Shown piece by piece: positions 7,545 through 15,575 of a DNA stretch of 58,007 nt. The notes beneath the pieces were generated by a model. It ran no database searches. It was not told the DNA's origin and saw only the letters and a list, made by a program, of their open reading frames with translations. Origin of the DNA: Kordiimonadales bacterium (GTDB lineage Bacteria > Pseudomonadota > Alphaproteobacteria > Sphingomonadales > Kordiimonadaceae); the NCBI GenBank assembly GCA_002401685.1, contig NVTU01000016.1:1-58007 (forward strand), read 5' to 3'. Every line of letters starts with the position of its first letter. Within the stretch, counting starts at the first letter, position 1. A program made the translations under genes and the position numbers.

Positions 7545-10022
7545 TCAGTCTGCCAATAGATCTGTTACAGAGGCAGAGAGGCTACGGCGGCTATACGTCA
7601 GGCCGATACTGCAAACAACTGCACACATCACGAGGACGGACCCAATGAGCCACGCAGGATCTGGCGAATAGGCCAAGGAGAACTGTGATTGGTATATTAG
7701 AAGACCTGCCAGCCAAGTTCCAGCCGCAGCCCCGGAACCAGCGATCAAGGCAGTGATCAACCAGTCGTAGAAGCTGAGTTTCATACAGTCCCTTTTACCT
7801 AGTCCCATGCTCATCAACAGGCCATTTTTTTGACGGTCGTCGGCCTCGAAACCCTTGATCGACGCCGCGATCACGACGCCAGCCATCAAAAGGACCATCG
7901 CGGCAAAGCCAACGGTAAGCTTAGTGACCATTGCGAGCGTCGCATCAAAGCGCGCGGTTAATTCCTTAAGGGGCACCATAGAAAGATCCGGGAATTGCTG
8001 CCAGAGAGTGTCGAGAGTCCCCCACGCCGCATCAGGCAATTCCATGCTGCCGATATAGCGCACAGATGGGGCAACTTCTGTGACCATCAAAGGCGGCACT
8101 TGGAACCAAAAAGTGATCGATCCACGACCGGGTCTGAAGGCGTGACTTACGGTCAGTTTAAAATCATGCAGCTTGCCGTCAATTTGAAACGTGAGGGTAT
8201 CGCCGAGCGCCAAGCCAAGGTCAGTAAGGACCTCCGGTTCTGCAGAGATACGGTGCCAGTCAGCCTCGCCTGGCTGCCACCAGTTGCCGTCAACAACCCG
8301 GTTATTGTCAGGAACCGCCTCTGACCAGCTCAATCTGATCGGGGATTTCACGTTTGAAAGCGTGTCGCTGGGTTTGGTGACAAAGTCATCCAGTTTGGCA
8401 CCGTTGATCTTCACCAATTGCGCATTGGTGAATGGACGCAGTGCCCGGATCACACTGCCGGTACTGCTGGCCCAGGTTTCGATTGCTTTCATGTGTTTTG
8501 GCTGCGCTGCCGAGATCAGCAGATTGCCGTCGTTAGAACGCACGTAGCCGTCCATTGAAGTACGGATATCCTGCATCAGCATCAAAGTGAATAAAAGCAG
8601 CAAACCGCACAAGCCCAGGCCCAATATTTGGGTCGATTTACTGAAAATCCGCTGCTTCATCATGAAAAAGCTAAACGGCAACAGCCCCGGACGGCGACGG
8701 GCCCAAAGCTCGCCGAAGGTCAAAACCAACCATGTGAGCAGAAGCATCAATAGCAGCGCTCCGCCCATTGCCGCCAACGTCATACCAGTGAGCAAGGCAT
8801 TGTCCGAATAAAAACTGGCAAGCATTGCTAGGCTGGAAAATCCCCAAACGGTGCGCAGGAACGTTGCTCTAGGTGTGTCTTGTGCCCGGATCAGCGAGGC
8901 GACAGACGAGCTCTTGAGCTGCCAAAGCGCTGGTGCCTGAAAGGCAAGCAGCAAAGCAAGTGTTAAAAGGGTTGTCTTCACTAACGCTGCGGTGTGCCAA
9001 CCCCAGCTTATGCCAGGGAACTGATCGGCGAGCTGGCCGATGAGAAAGCCCTCAGCGACGTAGGCGAGCGCGGTACCAATGCAAAGCGAGGCGATAAAAC
9101 CAAGACCCCACTGGAACAAGCTTATCTTGAGGCCTGTGCTCAGGCGTGTTCCAAAGCTCAAATAAAGCGCAAGGCGGTGTTTTTGGCGCACCAAGTGGCG
9201 GCGGTTTGCCATGTCAACGGCGACAGCGGCCATGAAAAACAGGATCACTGACGCTAAACCGAGGAAGTTCTCAGTCCGCTGCCAGAATAGCGCGAGCGGG
9301 TGCGAGCCGCCGTCTTTCTTGGTGATTTCCGCTGCGGGCAACGTCTCTGCAACCCACGCCTCAATCGCGCTGCGTTCTGAAGCGTTTGCCTCTAGCAAAT
9401 AGCGATAGCGATTGTTGGTGCCATCCAGGTTAGCCCCTTTAAGCGATGCCGAATGTACCATCGCGCGCATGGCGACCGAATGGCCTTCCATCAGACGGTC
9501 AGGTTCGTGAAACACTATCGCGGTGACGGCCAACTGGGTATCGCCGAGTGTCATCACGTCGCCGACGGCCGCCTTGAGCTTGGTGCTGAGGCGCGGACCG
9601 ATCCAGATCTCGCCGAGGCCAGGGCCACGCGTGCGCGAGACATGCTCGGCTGAACGGGACGCGCCAGTCTTCAGCTCACCCTGCAAAGGATATATATCAT
9701 CGATCAGCTTGAGTTGTGCACGCTGCCAGGCGCCTTTGTGTGCAAGCGTCAGGGTCATCAGCTGTGTGGTGGACCTGCGCGCGGCAAGCGTTGTGAGCAT
9801 ATCTACTTCATCCGAAGCAAGCGCATCATAGCTTGTCACTGCCATGTCAGCGCCGAGCATGCTGTCTAAATTATCGCTTAGATACCGCTGCACCGATGCG
9901 CTTGTTAGCGACAGCGTCAGCAGGAAAAAAATTAGGAGCGTCTGTGTCAAAATTAGAAGCCGACCATCGCTGCCTTTTATGTCAGCTCTCGCATTGTCAA
10001 GGGCAACCGATACGCTGCTCAT
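7545..10022 (-). CDS. FtsX-like ABC transporter permease, YbbP type
   Basis: An 825-residue membrane protein, close to the roughly 800 residues of YbbP. Hydrophobic segments near 25-45, 250-275, 300-330, 350-370, 395-440, 470-490, 700-725, 755-780 and 790-815 fit the ten-helix YbbP layout with two large periplasmic domains. The first periplasmic domain has DDIYPLQGELKTG and GPGLGEIWIGPRLSTKL, which is characteristic of this group. Such transporters work as mechanotransmission or extrusion pumps rather than importers. Its start overlaps the stop of the ATPase gene by 4 bp. E. coli ybbAP is paired with the periplasmic esterase TesA; here a secreted hydrolase gene lies about 2.8 kb away under the same predicted operator. 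Confidence 0.88.
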   Translation of the reverse strand: MSSVSVALDNARADIKGSDGRLLILTQTLLIFFLLTLSLTSASVQRYLSDNLDSMLGADMAVTSYDALASDEVDMLTTLAARRSTTQLMTLTLAHKGAWQRAQLKLIDDIYPLQGELKTGASRSAEHVSRTRGPGLGEIWIGPRLSTKLKAAVGDVMTLGDTQLAVTAIVFHEPDRLMEGHSVAMRAMVHSASLKGANLDGTNNRYRYLLEANASERSAIEAWVAETLPAAEITKKDGGSHPLALFWQRTENFLGLASVILFFMAAVAVDMANRRHLVRQKHRLALYLSFGTRLSTGLKISLFQWGLGFIASLCIGTALAYVAEGFLIGQLADQFPGISWGWHTAALVKTTLLTLALLLAFQAPALWQLKSSSVASLIRAQDTPRATFLRTVWGFSSLAMLASFYSDNALLTGMTLAAMGGALLLMLLLTWLVLTFGELWARRRPGLLPFSFFMMKQRIFSKSTQILGLGLCGLLLLFTLMLMQDIRTSMDGYVRSNDGNLLISAAQPKHMKAIETWASSTGSVIRALRPFTNAQLVKINGAKLDDFVTKPSDTLSNVKSPIRLSWSEAVPDNNRVVDGNWWQPGEADWHRISAEPEVLTDLGLALGDTLTFQIDGKLHDFKLTVSHAFRPGRGSITFWFQVPPLMVTEVAPSVRYIGSMELPDAAWGTLDTLWQQFPDLSMVPLKELTARFDATLAMVTKLTVGFAAMVLLMAGVVIAASIKGFEADDRQKNGLLMSMGLGKRDCMKLSFYDWLITALIAGSGAAAGTWLAGLLIYQSQFSLAYSPDPAWLIGSVLVMCAVVCSIGLTYSRRSLSASVTDLLAD

Positions 10023-10678
10023 GATGTCCGCTCCAGTTTACCGTGCGCCAAATGGTGGCTTGTGTCTGCCCGGTTGGCGAGCTCGCGGTTATGGGTAACC
10101 AGCACCAGCGCGCCGCCGCCTTCGGCAGCAAAATCAAACATCAAGTCAGCAACCTTGCCGGACGTTATTTCGTCGAGGTTCCCGGTTGGCTCATCAGCAA
10201 AAACAAAGGCGGGGTTGGTGACAAACGCGCGAGCGACCGCAATGCGTTGCTGCTCGCCGCCGCTCAATTGATTGGGCTTATGGTTTGCGCGGTCACTGAG
10301 CCCGACGCGCTCCAACCATGTGCGGGCGATATCAAAAGCGTCTTTATTGCCTTTGAGGCGCAGCGGCAGAGCCAGGTTACCAAGCGCGTCCAGCTCGTTC
10401 ATGAGATGAAAATGCTGAAAAATAAAGCCCGAGTGCGCGCGCATGTCAGTAGCTGATGCAGTTTTGCCGTCCACCCTGATATGGATATCGCCAGCTTTGG
10501 GTGTTTCGAGGCCAGCGGCCAGCGTCAAGAGACTAGATTTACCCGCGCCAGACGCTCCGGTGATAGCAAGTGTAGTGCCTGCTTTGATGGTAAGCGATAA
10601 ATCTTCGAACAGATTGATGCGCTCATCGCTGGTATCAAAAAAGTGGCTGATTTTCCTCAGCTCGATCTGGTTTTGCAT
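10019..10678 (-). CDS. ABC transporter ATPase, LolD/MacB/YbbA type
   Basis: A 219-residue ATPase with Walker A GASGAGKSS (about residues 41-49), Q-loop IFQHFHLM, signature LSGGEQQRIAVARA, Walker B FVFADEPTGNLD and switch His VTHNRELA. The size and the DEPTGNLD phrase are typical for ATPases that pair with FtsX-fold permeases. A strong AGGAGG ribosome site precedes the ATG. It starts the operon with the YbbP-like permease and is divergent from the two-component genes. A predicted response-regulator operator (10704-10737) lies directly upstream. Confidence 0.93.
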   Translation of the reverse strand: MQNQIELRKISHFFDTSDERINLFEDLSLTIKAGTTLAITGASGAGKSSLLTLAAGLETPKAGDIHIRVDGKTASATDMRAHSGFIFQHFHLMNELDALGNLALPLRLKGNKDAFDIARTWLERVGLSDRANHKPNQLSGGEQQRIAVARAFVTNPAFVFADEPTGNLDEITSGKVADLMFDFAAEGGGALVLVTHNRELANRADTSHHLAHGKLERTS

Positions 10679-10703
10679 AATGACCTCCTATCGGTTTATC
10701 CGG

Positions 10704-10737
10704 ACCTTAGAGAGGGTAATGTCAAATGAGTGTGAAA
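10704..10737 (-). promoter_or_regulatory. PhoB-like direct-repeat operator and -10 for the ABC transporter operon
   Basis: On the minus strand TTTCACA (10737-10731) and TTTGACA (10726-10720) repeat with an 11-bp period. Exactly 10 nt further is TAAGGT (10709-10704), a weak -10 candidate. The predicted start of transcription gives a leader of about 20 nt carrying the AGGAGG site. It matches three other sites nearby in repeat sequence, period and spacing. Confidence 0.6.
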
Positions 10738-10777
10738 CGCTGAATATTGGCGGGTTCATGTGTTGGTGAAACCACCG

Positions 10778-10811
10778 ATTGACACTTGTTTGACATTGCG
10801 ATGAATATGGT
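10778..10811 (+). promoter_or_regulatory. PhoB-like direct-repeat operator and -10 for the two-component operon
   Basis: ATTGACA (10778-10784) and TTTGACA (10789-10795) repeat with an 11-bp period, and TATGGT (10806-10811) follows after exactly 10 nt. The layout matches the sites at 10704-10737, 12792-12825 and 13734-13767, which suggests that the response regulator activates its own operon. Confidence 0.65.
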
Positions 10812-10856
10812 GTGTCTGCGCAGATATACTGAGCCAACACTGTAAAGGGCATAGCG

Positions 10857-11531
10857 ATGCGGGTTCTAATAATTGAAGATAATCTCGATATTCAGGCGAA
10901 TATCGCGGACTATCTGGAAAACGATTTCACCCTCGACTTTGCATACAGCGGCACCCAAGGGCTTGAGCTTGCATTGTCCGGCGAATATGACGTGATCGTT
11001 CTGGATCTGATGTTGCCGGGCAAAGACGGCATCGAAGTATGCCGCGAATACCGCGAGAAAGCGCCTGTGCAAGCGCCGATCCTGATGCTGACAGCCCGCG
11101 ATACCATCGACGATAAAGAGGTGGGCTTCACGGTGGGTGCGGACGATTATATGATAAAGCCGTTTTCACTGCGTGAGTTGAAAATGCGGATTGAAGCGTT
11201 GGCGCGGCGCCCCAAAGCAAAATTAAAGCACATATTGTCTTATGCAGGCGTGAGCCTTCAGCCCGGCGCCACTGTTTTCAGTGTCGGTGATACCACTTAC
11301 TTGCTGCACGAAAAGGAGGCTCGTATTCTCGGGCTTCTAGCCGACGCGGCCCCCGAGATTGTAACCGCTCAGACGATTTCCTACGCCCTCTGGGGAGACG
11401 AACCACCAGAATCGGGTGCGCTCAGGACGCATATCTATAATCTGAGGAAAGCACTGGGTAGCGCAAGCAAAGGCAATTTGCTTCATACGGTTAGAGGGCG
11501 CGGTTATATGTTGCGGGAGATAGCCAAATGA
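10857..11531 (+). CDS. OmpR/PhoB-family response regulator
   Basis: A 224-residue two-domain regulator. The receiver has the acidic pair ED (residues 7-8), phospho-acceptor Asp50 in VIVLDLMLPGKDG, Thr in MLTARD and Lys in MIKPFSLRE. The C-terminal winged helix of the OmpR type ends in RTHIYNLRKALG and HTVRGRGYMLRE. It overlaps the kinase gene by 4 bp (ATGA). An 11-bp direct repeat upstream of this and three neighbouring units, with a PhoB-like distance to the -10, fits tandem dimer binding by this family. The signal is unknown; the neighbours suggest envelope stress. Confidence 0.95.
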   Translation: MRVLIIEDNLDIQANIADYLENDFTLDFAYSGTQGLELALSGEYDVIVLDLMLPGKDGIEVCREYREKAPVQAPILMLTARDTIDDKEVGFTVGADDYMIKPFSLRELKMRIEALARRPKAKLKHILSYAGVSLQPGATVFSVGDTTYLLHEKEARILGLLADAAPEIVTAQTISYALWGDEPPESGALRTHIYNLRKALGSASKGNLLHTVRGRGYMLREIAK

Positions 11532-12766
11532 AAACAAAACTGAATCCAAAGTTGAAGCGTGTTCGCAGCCTTATTCTGCGCAATTTTATCGGCTCAGCAC
11601 TTATAACATTTATCATGTTTGCGCTCTTGAGCGCGATGTTCGGTTTTGAACTGGAAGATGAGATCTTTGATCATCAGGTGCGCGTGAAAGCCGATCAGCT
11701 AACGGCTGCTTTCCCGGCGATTGCCGACAGCGGAATAGTAGGCGGCGTTGAGATGCAATATTTCATCGGCATGGATGCGATGCCAGAATGGATGCAAGAG
11801 CGTATCGACCCGGAATGGCCAGTAGGCCGCTATGAAATTTTTGCTGAAGAGTTTGGCCATTTTCACGTGGCAGTGCGCCAAGTGGGCGACGGGAAGCTCT
11901 ATTTGCTTTTCAATGCGCGGCCCTATATCCGTTCCACGCCGCAAATCATAGCCTACCTTAAAATTGTCTCAGGTATTGCGGCGCTGGCGCTAATGATTTC
12001 ACTGTTTTTCATATACCGGATGACAAAACGCGTGACCGCGCCGATCGAAAAAATGGCAGAGGTTTTGGCAACTGGCGACGCGGCGGAGGTGGCCGGTGAC
12101 CTGGACGATGGTGCTCTGGTTGAACTGCGCGCACTTGTTCATGCCATCAATTCGCGCGATCAGCGCATTCAGTCGCTGCTTGACCGAGAACGGCAATTCA
12201 ACCGCGACGCAAGCCACGAGCTCAGAACGCCACTGTCTGTCGCAATGGGCGCGGCAGAGGTGCTCGAGAGTGCGGGAGCTGAGGGGGCAGCTTTTGGCCG
12301 GCTTAAAACCGCGCTCGCCGATATGCAGCATCTTACCGAAGGTATCTTGTGGTTAAGCCGTGATCCCAGTAGTGCCCATAAGTGCAAGCCCGCCGCTGTC
12401 GGTACTGAAGCGATCAGCGCATACAAACATTTGCTACAGAACCGCAGCGTACGTGTCGAGCTGATTGAGGAAGCGCAAGGTGTGGTTATGCCTGTGCCAA
12501 CGGCTGTCGCCCAAGTGATGATCGGCAATATCATTAGAAACGCTTTCAGCTATACCGAAGAGGGCGCCGTGACGATCGAGATTTCGCCCGGCGCGCTGCG
12601 TGTAACCGATACCGGGGTTGGTTTTGGCAATGCCGATCAAAGCACGACGGGCTTTGGCATCGGGCTTTCGCTGGTTGAGCGCCTGTGTCAGCATTTTGGC
12701 CTTACGCTTGACGTCGGTGCAGGACCCGAGAGGGGCACCGTAGCGGTTATTTCCTGGGAACAATAA
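11528..12766 (+). CDS. Membrane sensor histidine kinase
   Basis: A 412-residue kinase with two transmembrane helices (about 17-40 and 144-164) bounding a periplasmic domain of about 100 residues. A HAMP-like linker follows (TKRVTAPIEKMAEVLATG), then the dimerisation box with phospho-acceptor His230 in RDASHELRTPL. The ATPase domain has the N box in GNIIRNAFSYTEEG, the G1 box VTDTGVGFG and the G2 box TTGFGIGLSLVERL. All catalytic motifs are present. It is coupled to the response regulator by overlapping start and stop codons. Confidence 0.95.
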   Translation: MKTKLNPKLKRVRSLILRNFIGSALITFIMFALLSAMFGFELEDEIFDHQVRVKADQLTAAFPAIADSGIVGGVEMQYFIGMDAMPEWMQERIDPEWPVGRYEIFAEEFGHFHVAVRQVGDGKLYLLFNARPYIRSTPQIIAYLKIVSGIAALALMISLFFIYRMTKRVTAPIEKMAEVLATGDAAEVAGDLDDGALVELRALVHAINSRDQRIQSLLDRERQFNRDASHELRTPLSVAMGAAEVLESAGAEGAAFGRLKTALADMQHLTEGILWLSRDPSSAHKCKPAAVGTEAISAYKHLLQNRSVRVELIEEAQGVVMPVPTAVAQVMIGNIIRNAFSYTEEGAVTIEISPGALRVTDTGVGFGNADQSTTGFGIGLSLVERLCQHFGLTLDVGAGPERGTVAVISWEQ

Positions 12767-12791
12767 TCGGCCGCGCGGTATTTGGCGCCAG

Positions 12792-12825
12792 TTTGACACT
12801 GGTTTGACAGAGCCCGCGCTAAAAC
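12792..12825 (+). promoter_or_regulatory. PhoB-like direct-repeat operator and -10 for the hydrolase gene
   Basis: Two exact copies of TTTGACA (12792-12798, 12803-12809) with an 11-bp period, then TAAAAC (12820-12825) after exactly 10 nt. The predicted leader is about 20 nt and includes the GGAG ribosome site of the hydrolase gene. The second TTGACA is too close to the -10 to serve as an ordinary -35 box, which supports activator binding. Confidence 0.68.
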
Positions 12826-12850
12826 GTCTCCAGAAAATGGAGAAGCCCCA

Positions 12851-13633
12851 ATGAAACAAATCACAATCAGTTTATGCCTAACCCTTGCCTTTCTTTTTGC
12901 ACCGGTTAGTGCAAACGCAGATACTCAAATGCAGACCCTTGTGCTGGATGCACACGACGGCGAGCGTATTTCCGGATTTCTGTACCAAGGTGAGAAAACC
13001 GCGAAAGACGCGCCGATCGCCCTATTGATGCATGGCCTCACCGGCTCCAACCTGCACTGGATCGCTGACGGCTTTCCGTCCTACGGCGGCAAGTTGAGCG
13101 CTATGCTGATTGACAAGGGCTACCGCGTGGTGGCCATTGATGCCCGTGCGCACGGGGTCCGCAAAAATGATATTTCACCTATCGAGCGAGTGATGGCTGC
13201 CCGGAGCGGCAAACCAACGGCCTACCGTGCCATGATTGAAAATACAATCCGCGATTATGATGTTTTGATCAAAAAACTGCAGCGCAATTTCCCAGATGCC
13301 AAGCGCATCGTCGCGGTGGGTTACAGCATGGGCGCGCAGATGGCAATTTTGCTCGCGGCTGAAAATGACGCCGTGACCCAGCTGATCACCATGGTGCCAC
13401 CGTTTGTCGGCAACGTACCTGAGGTGTCGCCAATCCAGCACGCTGAGGGCGTTGAAGTGCCGTGGCTGCTGTTGACCGCGAACAAGGACCGGTTTTCAAC
13501 CGTAGAGCAAAACAGCATGCTTGCCGCGAAAGCTGCCGGGCCTTTGCAGCATAAAAGCTATGATAGTGGCCATGTATTGCCAGCAGAGTATCTTGCGGTA
13601 ATAGAGCTTTGGACAAGTGAGCTGGACCAGTAA
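12851..13633 (+). CDS. Secreted alpha/beta hydrolase (lysophospholipase/thioesterase-like)
   Basis: A 260-residue protein with a Sec signal peptide (MKQITISLCLTLAFLFAPVS, cleavage near ANA-D), so it acts in the periplasm. The alpha/beta fold is shown by the oxyanion region LLMHGLTGSN, the nucleophile elbow VGYSMGAQM with Ser159, Asp213 in LLTANKDRFS and His241 in YDSGHVLP, forming a complete triad. The substrate is not certain; an ester of a lipid or peptidoglycan component is possible. It lies directly after the two-component operon and has its own copy of the shared operator. Together with the YbbAP-like transporter it recalls E. coli YbbAP with TesA, although TesA has a different fold. Confidence 0.88.
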   Translation: MKQITISLCLTLAFLFAPVSANADTQMQTLVLDAHDGERISGFLYQGEKTAKDAPIALLMHGLTGSNLHWIADGFPSYGGKLSAMLIDKGYRVVAIDARAHGVRKNDISPIERVMAARSGKPTAYRAMIENTIRDYDVLIKKLQRNFPDAKRIVAVGYSMGAQMAILLAAENDAVTQLITMVPPFVGNVPEVSPIQHAEGVEVPWLLLTANKDRFSTVEQNSMLAAKAAGPLQHKSYDSGHVLPAEYLAVIELWTSELDQ

Positions 13634-13644
13634 TTTTACTTCTA

Positions 13645-13679
13645 AGCAGGGGCCAGTCGCTATAAAACTGACCCTTGCT
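13645..13679 (+). terminator. Imperfect hairpin after the hydrolase gene
   Basis: Thirteen-base arms at 13645-13657 and 13667-13679 pair except for one C-A mismatch and one G-T wobble, leaving a 9-nt loop. It lies 12 bp after the stop codon. There is no T run, so it may be a weak or Rho-assisted terminator. Confidence 0.45.
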
Positions 13680-13733
13680 GTGCCGCATCATTAAGCCAGA
13701 AAAGTGTCAGGGTTTGAAAGAAGTCTCCAACAC

Positions 13734-13767
13734 TTTGACGTTCGTTTGACACACTGATTGTTATATT
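13734..13767 (+). promoter_or_regulatory. PhoB-like direct-repeat operator and -10 for the CPBP protease gene
   Basis: TTTGACG (13734-13740) and TTTGACA (13745-13751) repeat with an 11-bp period, and TATATT (13762-13767), a good -10, follows after exactly 10 nt. This is the fourth copy of the arrangement in 3 kb. Confidence 0.66.
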
Positions 13768-13827
13768 AAACCCCTGATAAAAGACGCTCACAAGAGCGCA
13801 TTACTCACGCGGCAGAGGAGCCACATT

Positions 13828-14547
13828 ATGCACGAAGAAACAGCAAGCTCGGCCCCAGCCAGTGCCAGCGGATCACGCTTCTCTTTTGCTGCGATCATTG
13901 ACCTGATCGCCGTGTTGGCAACACTTGTTATTGTCAAACAAACCGTATTGCCGTTTAGTTATCTCTATGCCGGGCCTGCGTCGACTTTCAGTGCAATGGC
14001 GCTAGGCACCTATCTGTTGCGCCGCCGCGGATTGAGCTGGGCCGACCTCGGGCTACGCTGGCCAAAGAGTTGGCTGAAAACAGTTGGCCTCGCTGTTCTA
14101 ACCTTCTTTGCTTTTGCGATCAGCATGGAGCTGACTGAAACCGTCGCGGACATGTTTTTCGAAAATGTTGGTGCCAGTGGCCGCTTCGATCATGTTGAGG
14201 GCAACTGGAGCGCCTATCTGATCATCATGGTGCTTACCTGGACCCATGCCTCCTTTTTCGAAGAACTCTTGTTTCGCGCCTTTTTTATTAACCGAGCCAG
14301 CAGCTTTCTGGGCGGGGGTTTGCGTGCTGACCTTATCGCTGTGGTGCTCTCCGCGATATTTTTTGGCTATAGGCACTTTTATTATCAGGGCATGAACGGT
14401 GCGCTGAAAACCGGCGCGGCGGGACTGGTCTTGGGGCTTTTATATCTGTGGTTCGGGCGCAAGAATATCATGCCGCTGGTCCTGTCACACGGTGTCATGA
14501 ACTCCCTCGGCATGACCATGCGCTTCCTTGGTATGCGCGGTGACTAA
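13828..14547 (+). CDS. CPBP family glutamic-type intramembrane protease
   Basis: A 239-residue membrane protein with several hydrophobic helices. The three CPBP/Abi motifs are present: EExxxR in FFEELLFRAFF, FxxxH in FFGYRHFYYQG, and HxxxN in LSHGVMNSLG. Members include Rce1 CAAX proteases and bacteriocin-immunity proteins; they cut or bind substrates in the membrane. It carries the shared direct-repeat operator, so it probably belongs to the local two-component regulon. A second CPBP gene follows in convergent orientation. Confidence 0.9.
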   Translation: MHEETASSAPASASGSRFSFAAIIDLIAVLATLVIVKQTVLPFSYLYAGPASTFSAMALGTYLLRRRGLSWADLGLRWPKSWLKTVGLAVLTFFAFAISMELTETVADMFFENVGASGRFDHVEGNWSAYLIIMVLTWTHASFFEELLFRAFFINRASSFLGGGLRADLIAVVLSAIFFGYRHFYYQGMNGALKTGAAGLVLGLLYLWFGRKNIMPLVLSHGVMNSLGMTMRFLGMRGD

Positions 14548-14601
14548 ACCAGATACAGTCGCATCTCTTCCAAAAAACGATGCTTGAACACAAAGCCGCC
14601 A

Positions 14602-14720: not shown

Positions 14721-15419
14721 TTAGTTCATTTTACCGTCAGTGAGATAATAGGCCGTAAGACCGATACTGTTGATGATGCCGTGGGCCACGATGATCGGGA
14801 AAAGTCTGCGTTTGCCGTACAGATAGACTGTGGCAAAAATCACCGCAATGACGGCGGTTCCAATCACGCCGTGAATGCCTTGATAAATATGCAGGGAGCC
14901 AAAAATAGCGGCATGGATTACCACCGCGATGATCCAGCCCTTTTTGCTCTGACCAAAAAGGCCGGATAGATAATTGAGTAGAAAGCCCCGCATCAGCAGC
15001 TCTTCGCCCACCGCTGCGCCGAGCCAGATTACCACAACCAGATAAGCCAGAAACTTCAGAGGTTCGCCGAGAAGGAACTTAAAGCGGTCCGCCGCGTCAG
15101 CGGGCACTTCGACAGCGAGCAGCTGCGCCAGCAAGGGCATAATCAACGCCATGAAAAGCAGCACTGCGAAGACCGTCGCGAAAGCAATACCAATAGATTT
15201 CAGCCAGCTCTTCCACCCTGTCGGCAGCGTCAGGCCGAGGCTTTTCCATGAGATGCCGTGCCGGCGCATAAACAGGGTTGCTACACCGATCCCTGCCCAC
15301 ATCGCGATTGAACCCGCACCGATCAGCTCCAGCCGGTCAGCAATGTCTTTTATGCCGAGCATCACGGCGAGCACGATGGCTATCTCGGTAAGTGTCCTGG
15401 ATTTGGAAAGAGTCTTCAT
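14721..15419 (-). CDS. CPBP family glutamic-type intramembrane protease, second copy
   Basis: About 232 residues from ATG at 15419, chosen because AGGAA lies about 8 nt upstream; a longer start at 15461 lacks a clear ribosome site. Motifs are EExxxR in VGEELLMRGFL, FxxxH in IFGSLHIYQG and HxxxN in VAHGIINSIG, with flanking membrane helices. It is a distant paralogue of the protease at 13828-14547. Its upstream region does not carry the direct repeat found at the other genes of the module, so it may be controlled differently. Confidence 0.88.
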   Translation of the reverse strand: MKTLSKSRTLTEIAIVLAVMLGIKDIADRLELIGAGSIAMWAGIGVATLFMRRHGISWKSLGLTLPTGWKSWLKSIGIAFATVFAVLLFMALIMPLLAQLLAVEVPADAADRFKFLLGEPLKFLAYLVVVIWLGAAVGEELLMRGFLLNYLSGLFGQSKKGWIIAVVIHAAIFGSLHIYQGIHGVIGTAVIAVIFATVYLYGKRRLFPIIVAHGIINSIGLTAYYLTDGKMN

Positions 15420-15575
15420 AGGTAGGTTCCTGCTGCTGTTTCTTATTTTTAATGCATTCATTTTTTAGCGAGGCGCAAACGCGTTGTGCACGGTGTTTAA
15501 ATAAGGATTGCAAAGGAATACTCAAATGATAGATTGTCATATATATATTAGTATAATTAATAAAAAGAAGGCTGT

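Follow-up and report, generated by a model that had tools for sequence, protein, structure and literature searches.

The DNA analysed here is a stretch of 58,007 nucleotides from a Kordiimonadales bacterium (contig NVTU01000016.1, hereafter the window), in which four promoters share a conserved tandem-repeat site. Through these sites, a response regulator encoded at the locus very probably activates four units: the operon to which it belongs, a second transporter of the YbbAP type, a hydrolase and a CPBP protease. From the sequences, we infer a conserved, autoregulated OmpR/PhoB-type regulon in which the local regulator would bind and activate. The predicted regulator sites are located before ybbA-ybbP (10720..10737, minus strand, TTTCACACTCATTTGACA), before the regulator/kinase operon, where autoregulation is predicted (10778..10795, plus strand, ATTGACACTTGTTTGACA), before the hydrolase (12792..12809, plus strand, TTTGACACTGGTTTGACA) and before the CPBP protease (13734..13751, plus strand, TTTGACGTTCGTTTGACA). 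Each consists of a 7+4+7-bp direct repeat followed, after exactly 10 nt, by a -10-like hexamer: TAAGGT for ybbA (10704..10709, minus strand), TATGGT for the regulator (10806..10811, plus strand), TAAAAC for the hydrolase (12820..12825, plus strand) and TATATT for the CPBP gene (13762..13767, plus strand). A preliminary description of this DNA had reported the four repeats, their positions, the hexamers beginning exactly 10 nt after the second repeat and the four units behind them (ABC transporter operon, regulator/kinase operon, hydrolase and CPBP protease). All of this was recovered, and the units agree in position and gene family, although TTTGACA is common to the four sites only as the second half-site, the first half-site being variable.

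The sample consisted of the window genome (G000, an assembly of 2.68 Mb, 77% complete) and 58 relatives, the family of the window genome being represented by 29 genomes, itself included. A composite pattern (TTGACN5TTTGACA, 10 nt and TA, with at most one mismatch) gave four matches in the whole window assembly, which are these four sites, vs. two for the reversed pattern used as control. The training set of a scoring matrix comprised 37 sites, drawn in 13 genomes from the promoters of the regulator, ybbA and hydrolase genes; three came from the window, and no CPBP site, not even the window's, was among them. The matrix gave the four window sites 29.3-36.0 bits, with 34.0 for the CPBP site although it lay outside the training set, and the highest score among the other core matches (23 in the genome in all) was 11.8. 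The remaining 19 core matches (all at most 11.8) revealed no further regulon member; this search covered the 23 core matches of the assembled part, weaker sites and the missing part being outside its coverage, and, at 77% completeness, the assembly may lack further sites. Significance was not claimed from the window alone, where a loose 18-bp pattern with three mismatches was found 8 times vs. 6.3 expected, 26 of 100 shuffles also reaching 8.

Orthologues of the regulator (67-74% identity) were found in 12 of the 58 relatives, all from the family of the window genome, which makes 13 carriers out of the 29 family genomes; a search of the whole family for the orthologue added none to these. An additional orthologue, with 91% identity, is on L024, a named contig of Kordiimonadaceae. 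Outside the window, ybbA-ybbP is divergent from the regulator and kinase genes in each of the 13 loci. The hydrolase gene directly follows the kinase gene in 11 of the 13 genomes, is on another contig in G005 and has no match in G019, and neither of the two CPBP genes adjoins the cluster in the 5.9-18 kb fetched from each relative. Sites were counted, with a search expression composed after the sequences had been viewed, in 14 loci, i.e. those of the 13 carriers and that of L024, which stops short of the hydrolase site. Both the regulator and the ybbA sites were present in 14/14 loci and the hydrolase site in the 11/11 loci having the hydrolase behind the kinase, despite identities of only 43-74% between the locus proteins, a near relative excepted. 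Of these 39 sites, 33 have TA at 10 nt downstream (ybbA, 12/14, with CA in the other two; regulator, 10/14, with GA or CA in four; hydrolase, 11/11). As for the ybbA site, its upstream half-site reads TTTCAC in 14/14 loci, a variant which the regulator must accept if it is to bind this site. Another half-site variant was seen in the window, where a weaker third half-site, TTTGGCG, is located 11 bp upstream of the hydrolase site and in phase with it (12781-12809); it could leave room for a third subunit.

At the genome level, the 13 carriers hold 52 composite matches vs. 15 for the reversed control, and 44 of these 52 precede the four units (regulator 13, ybbA 11, hydrolase 12, CPBP 8). The motif search proposed in the preliminary description, repeat plus 10-nt spacing over this and related genomes, thus brought back the same four units. 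Two of the 12 hydrolase matches are in G005, one before the displaced hydrolase gene and one before its truncated duplicate. The two promoter/leader copies of this genome (L189 2598 and L190 2578) are about 14 kb apart, one of them with a full-length hydrolase. The other eight carrier matches have no related downstream gene and seven of them are within open frames longer than 100 amino acids, a location which proves little since some of the 44 are also within open frames. Concerning the 16 family non-carriers, 22 composite matches were obtained vs. 26 for the control, counted without regard to the downstream gene. Absence of the repeat before orthologous genes had been named as what would speak against the proposal; it was conserved before all four gene types in regulator carriers, and stood at background level in non-carriers.

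The CPBP genes were scored with the matrix, whose training set held no CPBP site. The scan covered 17 orthologous copies of at least 46% identity, paralogues below 46% being outside it. Scores ranged from 28.8 to 35.3 in 8 of the 9 carrier genomes having the gene, and from -5.5 to -15.4 in six non-carriers. The resulting distribution, 8/9 vs. 0/6, corresponds to a Fisher P of 0.0014, a value that ignores the common ancestry of the genomes; G025 was set aside, since it possesses a sister regulator and a variant site scoring 15.9. In seven genomes (G002, G004, G005, G012, G014, G016 and G018), the CPBP gene keeps its site although it lies at more than 300 kb from the cluster or on a different contig. 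The regulon, initially described as self-contained, is therefore so in the window and not in these relatives. The hydrolase orthologue shows a similar partition, with 12/13 carriers vs. 0/46 other genomes (three matches of at most 31% were ignored). Among the matches listed for the regulator, tblastn (E 1e-10) detected neither ybbP nor the hydrolase nor CPBP in the fetched flanks of the more distant relatives (L028-L103, n = 76).

Several observations weigh against this reading. The TA at the predicted -10 is replaced by GA or CA in 6 of the 39 sites. The Fisher tests treat related genomes as independent, an independence that their values overstate. One perfect match exists in a non-carrier (G022), while the CPBP orthologue of G028 and the second CPBP copy of G005 are devoid of site. 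No CPBP orthologue was found in G006, G010, G019 and G027 (best match of 28% in G027 and none in the other three, G006 being 80% complete), nor any hydrolase match in G019; the set of four units is consequently not fixed, as four carriers are without CPBP orthologue and one without hydrolase match. Finally, G057, which belongs to another family, has a cluster-type YbbAP (66/55% identity) preceded by one variant site (L275 7373-7406), which was found by eye and not by the search expression, and no regulator match above 44% was obtained in this genome. A transfer of the promoter together with its operon is possible in this case.

A sister regulator, 44-45% identical, was found in G025 and G023, again with ybbA-ybbP upstream. 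Its repeats read TTCACATnnnnTTCACAT before ybbA and before the regulator operon, and TTCACACnnnnTTCACAT before the CPBP gene of G025. The half-sites are thus TTCACA, with C replacing G in both. These sites are located at L146 4046 and 7238, L148 3942 and 7139, and L237 1415; TA follows at 10 nt for ybbA and CPBP, whereas the two operon sites gave no match with TA. In G025, the sister regulator operon opens with a DJ-1/PfpI-type gene, gene content having been viewed in L146 only. The aligned recognition helices read RTHIYNLRKAL in the window regulator and RSHIYQLRTAL in that of L146, the compared positions being those which we take, from PhoB, to contact bases. A third group (L147, L150 and L151) has TTGACA/TTCACA half-sites, all on the minus strand (L150 10647, L147 10951 and L151 10815), with TA 10 nt further in L150 and L151 and GA in L147, and the repeat precedes the regulator operon in L147 and L150. 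In the latter two, the operon order is a lipoprotein-like protein, the regulator, the kinase and a DJ-1/PfpI-like protein, the last identified by eye. The letters of the site therefore change along with the regulator, an argument in favour of the local regulator as its reader. The sister system, with its C for G in both half-sites, offers a natural experiment on how a regulator changes its specificity.

According to the proposed scheme, the kinase would sense an envelope signal and then phosphorylate the regulator, two subunits of which would bind head to tail, one per half-site, at the usual place of the -35 element. The bound regulator would then recruit RNA polymerase in the manner of PhoB and, by acting on its own operon, create a positive feedback. 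Activation from this position is suggested by the fact that no normally spaced -35 was found: a strict scan, requiring T at -10 position 6, recognised none of the four sites as a sigma-70 promoter with 16-18 nt spacing. Likewise, the E. coli pho box is near the -10 and substitutes for the -35 (PMC4971064). The regulator could also bind the same sites and mainly repress, or activate some units and repress others, as the sites overlap the promoter and a bound protein could block the polymerase. This is improbable, since the uniform 10-nt spacing at four unit types, together with the lack of a normally spaced -35, fits that placement of the pho box (PMC4971064).

Another OmpR-family protein of the host could read the repeat, given that a search with the regulator sequence gives 33 matches in the window genome, the regulator itself being one, and that G057 kept its variant site without a regulator orthologue. 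It is quite unlikely that such a protein does so in place of the local regulator: where the orthologue is absent, matches fall to background and CPBP genes have no site, though other regulators remain, and the site letters differ with the sister regulator. As for ordinary -35 elements of constitutive promoters, TTTGACA does contain the sigma-70 -35 consensus, and the repeat would then be a coincidence. Such a coincidence is hardly credible, because both half-sites are conserved, the -10-like hexamer is at 10 and not 16-18 nt, and the strict scan found no sigma-70 match at the sites.

The geometry of the sites is familiar and the gene set is not. As in the pho box recognised by PhoB, which consists of two direct repeats of 7 bp with 4 bp after each (PMC4971064), the site occupies the place of the -35, with the 10-nt distance to TA or, in those six sites, to GA or CA, the -10 itself being predicted. 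The genes concerned are not phosphate-related and the regulator is far under the PhoB equivalog cut-off (TIGR02154, 131.2 bits vs. 296.2). The half-sites also differ, TTTGACA here vs. TGTCAT in the pho box. Regulators of the OmpR/PhoB family recognise direct repeats. The M. tuberculosis PhoP binds as a tandem dimer to 7-bp motifs with a strict 4-bp spacer, its direct repeats being TCACAGC (PMC4832192); the 7-bp/4-bp geometry is common to both systems, but half-site and gene set are different here. No paper on this regulator was found, judging by titles and abstract openings. The regulon is small and has a defined predicted site, and is thereby open to testing.

What appears new is a conserved hairpin in the hydrolase leader, with a predicted transcript start inside it. 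By folding, a hairpin at 12827..12843 (plus strand) hides the Shine-Dalgarno GGAG (12839-12842), and the start, deduced from the -10 spacing rule, is expected near 12832. The distance from the kinase stop to the hydrolase ATG is 50-84 nt in 11/11 loci, and the TGA stop is within the first half-site in 8/11, so that readthrough from the kinase is expected. The hydrolase, previously presented as a unit of its own, thus retains its own conserved site but also stands within reach of kinase transcripts, with a conserved hairpin at its start. An arm complementary to the Shine-Dalgarno directly follows the -10-like hexamer in 11/11 distinct leaders. The short transcript used for folding began at the seventh base after the -10, in 13 leaders of which two are identical; under this assumption, 5-10 bases of the 5' arm are untranscribed in 11/11 leaders. 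The unpaired probability of GGAG was 0.00-0.23 in the long leaders (13/13) and 0.09-0.87 in the short transcripts. Fold energies, expressed as z vs. mononucleotide shuffles, were -1.5 to -7.1 for the hydrolase, -2.3 to 1.0 for the regulator and -3.5 to 1.4 for ybbA. The outer stem pairs vary by species, but pairing is maintained in the folds (one position shows four pair types and two others show three), and the loop length is variable, which favours an RNA structure over a DNA operator; these pairs were counted on single folds, a procedure leaning towards structure, and a MAFFT alignment of the leaders left the stem unaligned. A search of Rfam gave no match at E 0.1 within 10600-14600.

In the proposed scheme, the hairpin would keep the ribosome-binding site closed on kinase readthrough, and the hydrolase would need its own promoter for good translation. 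Tentatively, therefore, the hydrolase may be double-locked, its kinase readthrough mRNA silent and its own-promoter mRNA translated, within a membrane-lipid two-component regulon comprising a second, TesA-independent YbbAP. The ybbA leaders speak against this, as they share the computed opening: their long/short differences are as large, most of them open likewise, and the measure is consequently not specific to the hydrolase. Other results also count against this reading. The short transcript of L134 remains closed (0.09). In a second folding run with automatic 5-base windows, the unpaired probability was 0.21-0.59 in the long leaders, and the long/short differences were smaller, being nil or reversed in L134, L139 and L144. 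Some ybbA leaders fold below their shuffles too. A doubtful but possible alternative is that the hairpin is entirely contained in the normal transcript and does not guard against readthrough, serving instead as an RNA thermometer or as a small-RNA or protein target. In favour of this, the hairpin, which overlies the Shine-Dalgarno, is conserved, the transcript start is predicted only, the displaced hydrolase copies of G005 keep the hairpin away from the kinase gene, and the ybbA leaders, for which readthrough is not expected, give a similar computed difference. With the usual distance between the -10 and the transcript start, 5-10 bases of the 5' arm would nevertheless precede the start in all 11 leaders.

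The double lock has a parallel in phage T4 gene e, whose longer transcripts hide the ribosome-binding site while those from the late promoter do not, the promoter being immediately upstream and its transcripts lacking the 5' strand of the hiding structure (PMC3014915). Here, the hydrolase is a gene of a bacterial regulon and the start is predicted from the -10 spacing. If the start does lie inside the hairpin, the hydrolase leader would be a cellular counterpart of this phage switch and a simple way of insulating a gene inside an operon. Concerning the CPBP leaders, no common hairpin was found in the folding comparison. GCGGG and CCCGC-like segments were noticed by eye in three of them (L229, L230 and L247, from G014, G018 and G005 respectively), and could form alternative hairpins near the ribosome-binding site.

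The regulated transporter consists of a YbbA/LolD-type ATPase (10019..10678, minus strand, profile matches) and a YbbP-type permease with an FtsX domain (7545..10022, minus strand, Pfam FtsX), the sole PDB match of which is the YbbP of 9ge6. This permease does not reach the YbbP equivalog profile NF041854 (145.2 bits vs. a cut-off of 999). Its orthologues in the carriers are 52-55% identical; a second YbbP, at 22-25%, exists in every one of the 13 carriers. The window genome also holds another, canonical-looking YbbAP with a divergent GDSL hydrolase, TesA-like (L277 3771-7828, G000 contig 23). From this GDSL neighbour and the two YbbP of each carrier, the regulated YbbAP is concluded to be a specialised paralogue of the cluster type, and its being a second YbbAP makes a membrane-lipid role likely. 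The locus recalls the YbbAP-TesA lipid hydrolase complex of E. coli (PMC12646458) by its YbbA-like ATPase, YbbP-like permease and nearby, probably secreted hydrolase. It differs by an alpha/beta hydrolase instead of a GDSL one, the GDSL protein of the genome adjoining the other YbbAP and not this locus, and by the attached two-component system; the terms "two-component" and "promoter" are absent from the main text of PMC12646458 as far as available. By analogy, the alpha/beta hydrolase likely takes the part of TesA beside the regulated YbbAP, and the regulon probably deals with membrane lipids or comparable hydrophobic molecules. YbbAP has recently been described as a lipid-extraction transporter, and one of its paralogues is here linked with a two-component system, with a hydrolase of another kind and with a membrane protease, a link through which its substrate and inducing signal could be approached.

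The response regulator (10857..11531, plus strand) has Response_reg (PF00072) and Trans_reg_C (PF00486) domains above cut-off, which places it in the OmpR/PhoB family, and its D50 (the phospho-acceptor Asp), T79 and K101 are invariant in 16 aligned sequences. The probably secreted alpha/beta hydrolase (12851..13633, plus strand) has S159, D213 and H241 invariant in 11 aligned sequences and a Sec-type signal peptide at its N-terminus, as judged by eye. Its model (mean predicted local distance difference test of 77, 11 sequences) gave 1466 matching chains at E of at most 0.001, esterases and monoacylglycerol lipases among them; as many alpha/beta hydrolases are matched, the fold leaves the substrate unfixed. 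The CPBP/Rce1-like membrane protease (13828..14547, plus strand) was assigned by PF02517, and no repeat was seen by eye upstream of the second CPBP gene (14721-15461).

As for the sensor histidine kinase (11528..12766, plus strand), HisKA and HATPase_c domains were found, and a periplasmic segment is predicted from the alignment and the model. The latter shows a mixed-structure segment at about residues 62-137, between two long helices, with modest confidence (predicted template modelling score of 0.45). Its structural matches give no pointer to the signal, the top one being BceAB-S (template modelling score of 0.40-0.47). An FtsX-type ABC transporter beside an OmpR-type system is also the arrangement of BceAB-BceRS, but BceS-type kinases are not known to have an extracytoplasmic sensor domain, whereas a periplasmic segment is predicted for the kinase here. 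Within the predicted periplasmic segment, a GHFH motif is invariant in 12 aligned sequences and constitutes a candidate signal-binding feature.

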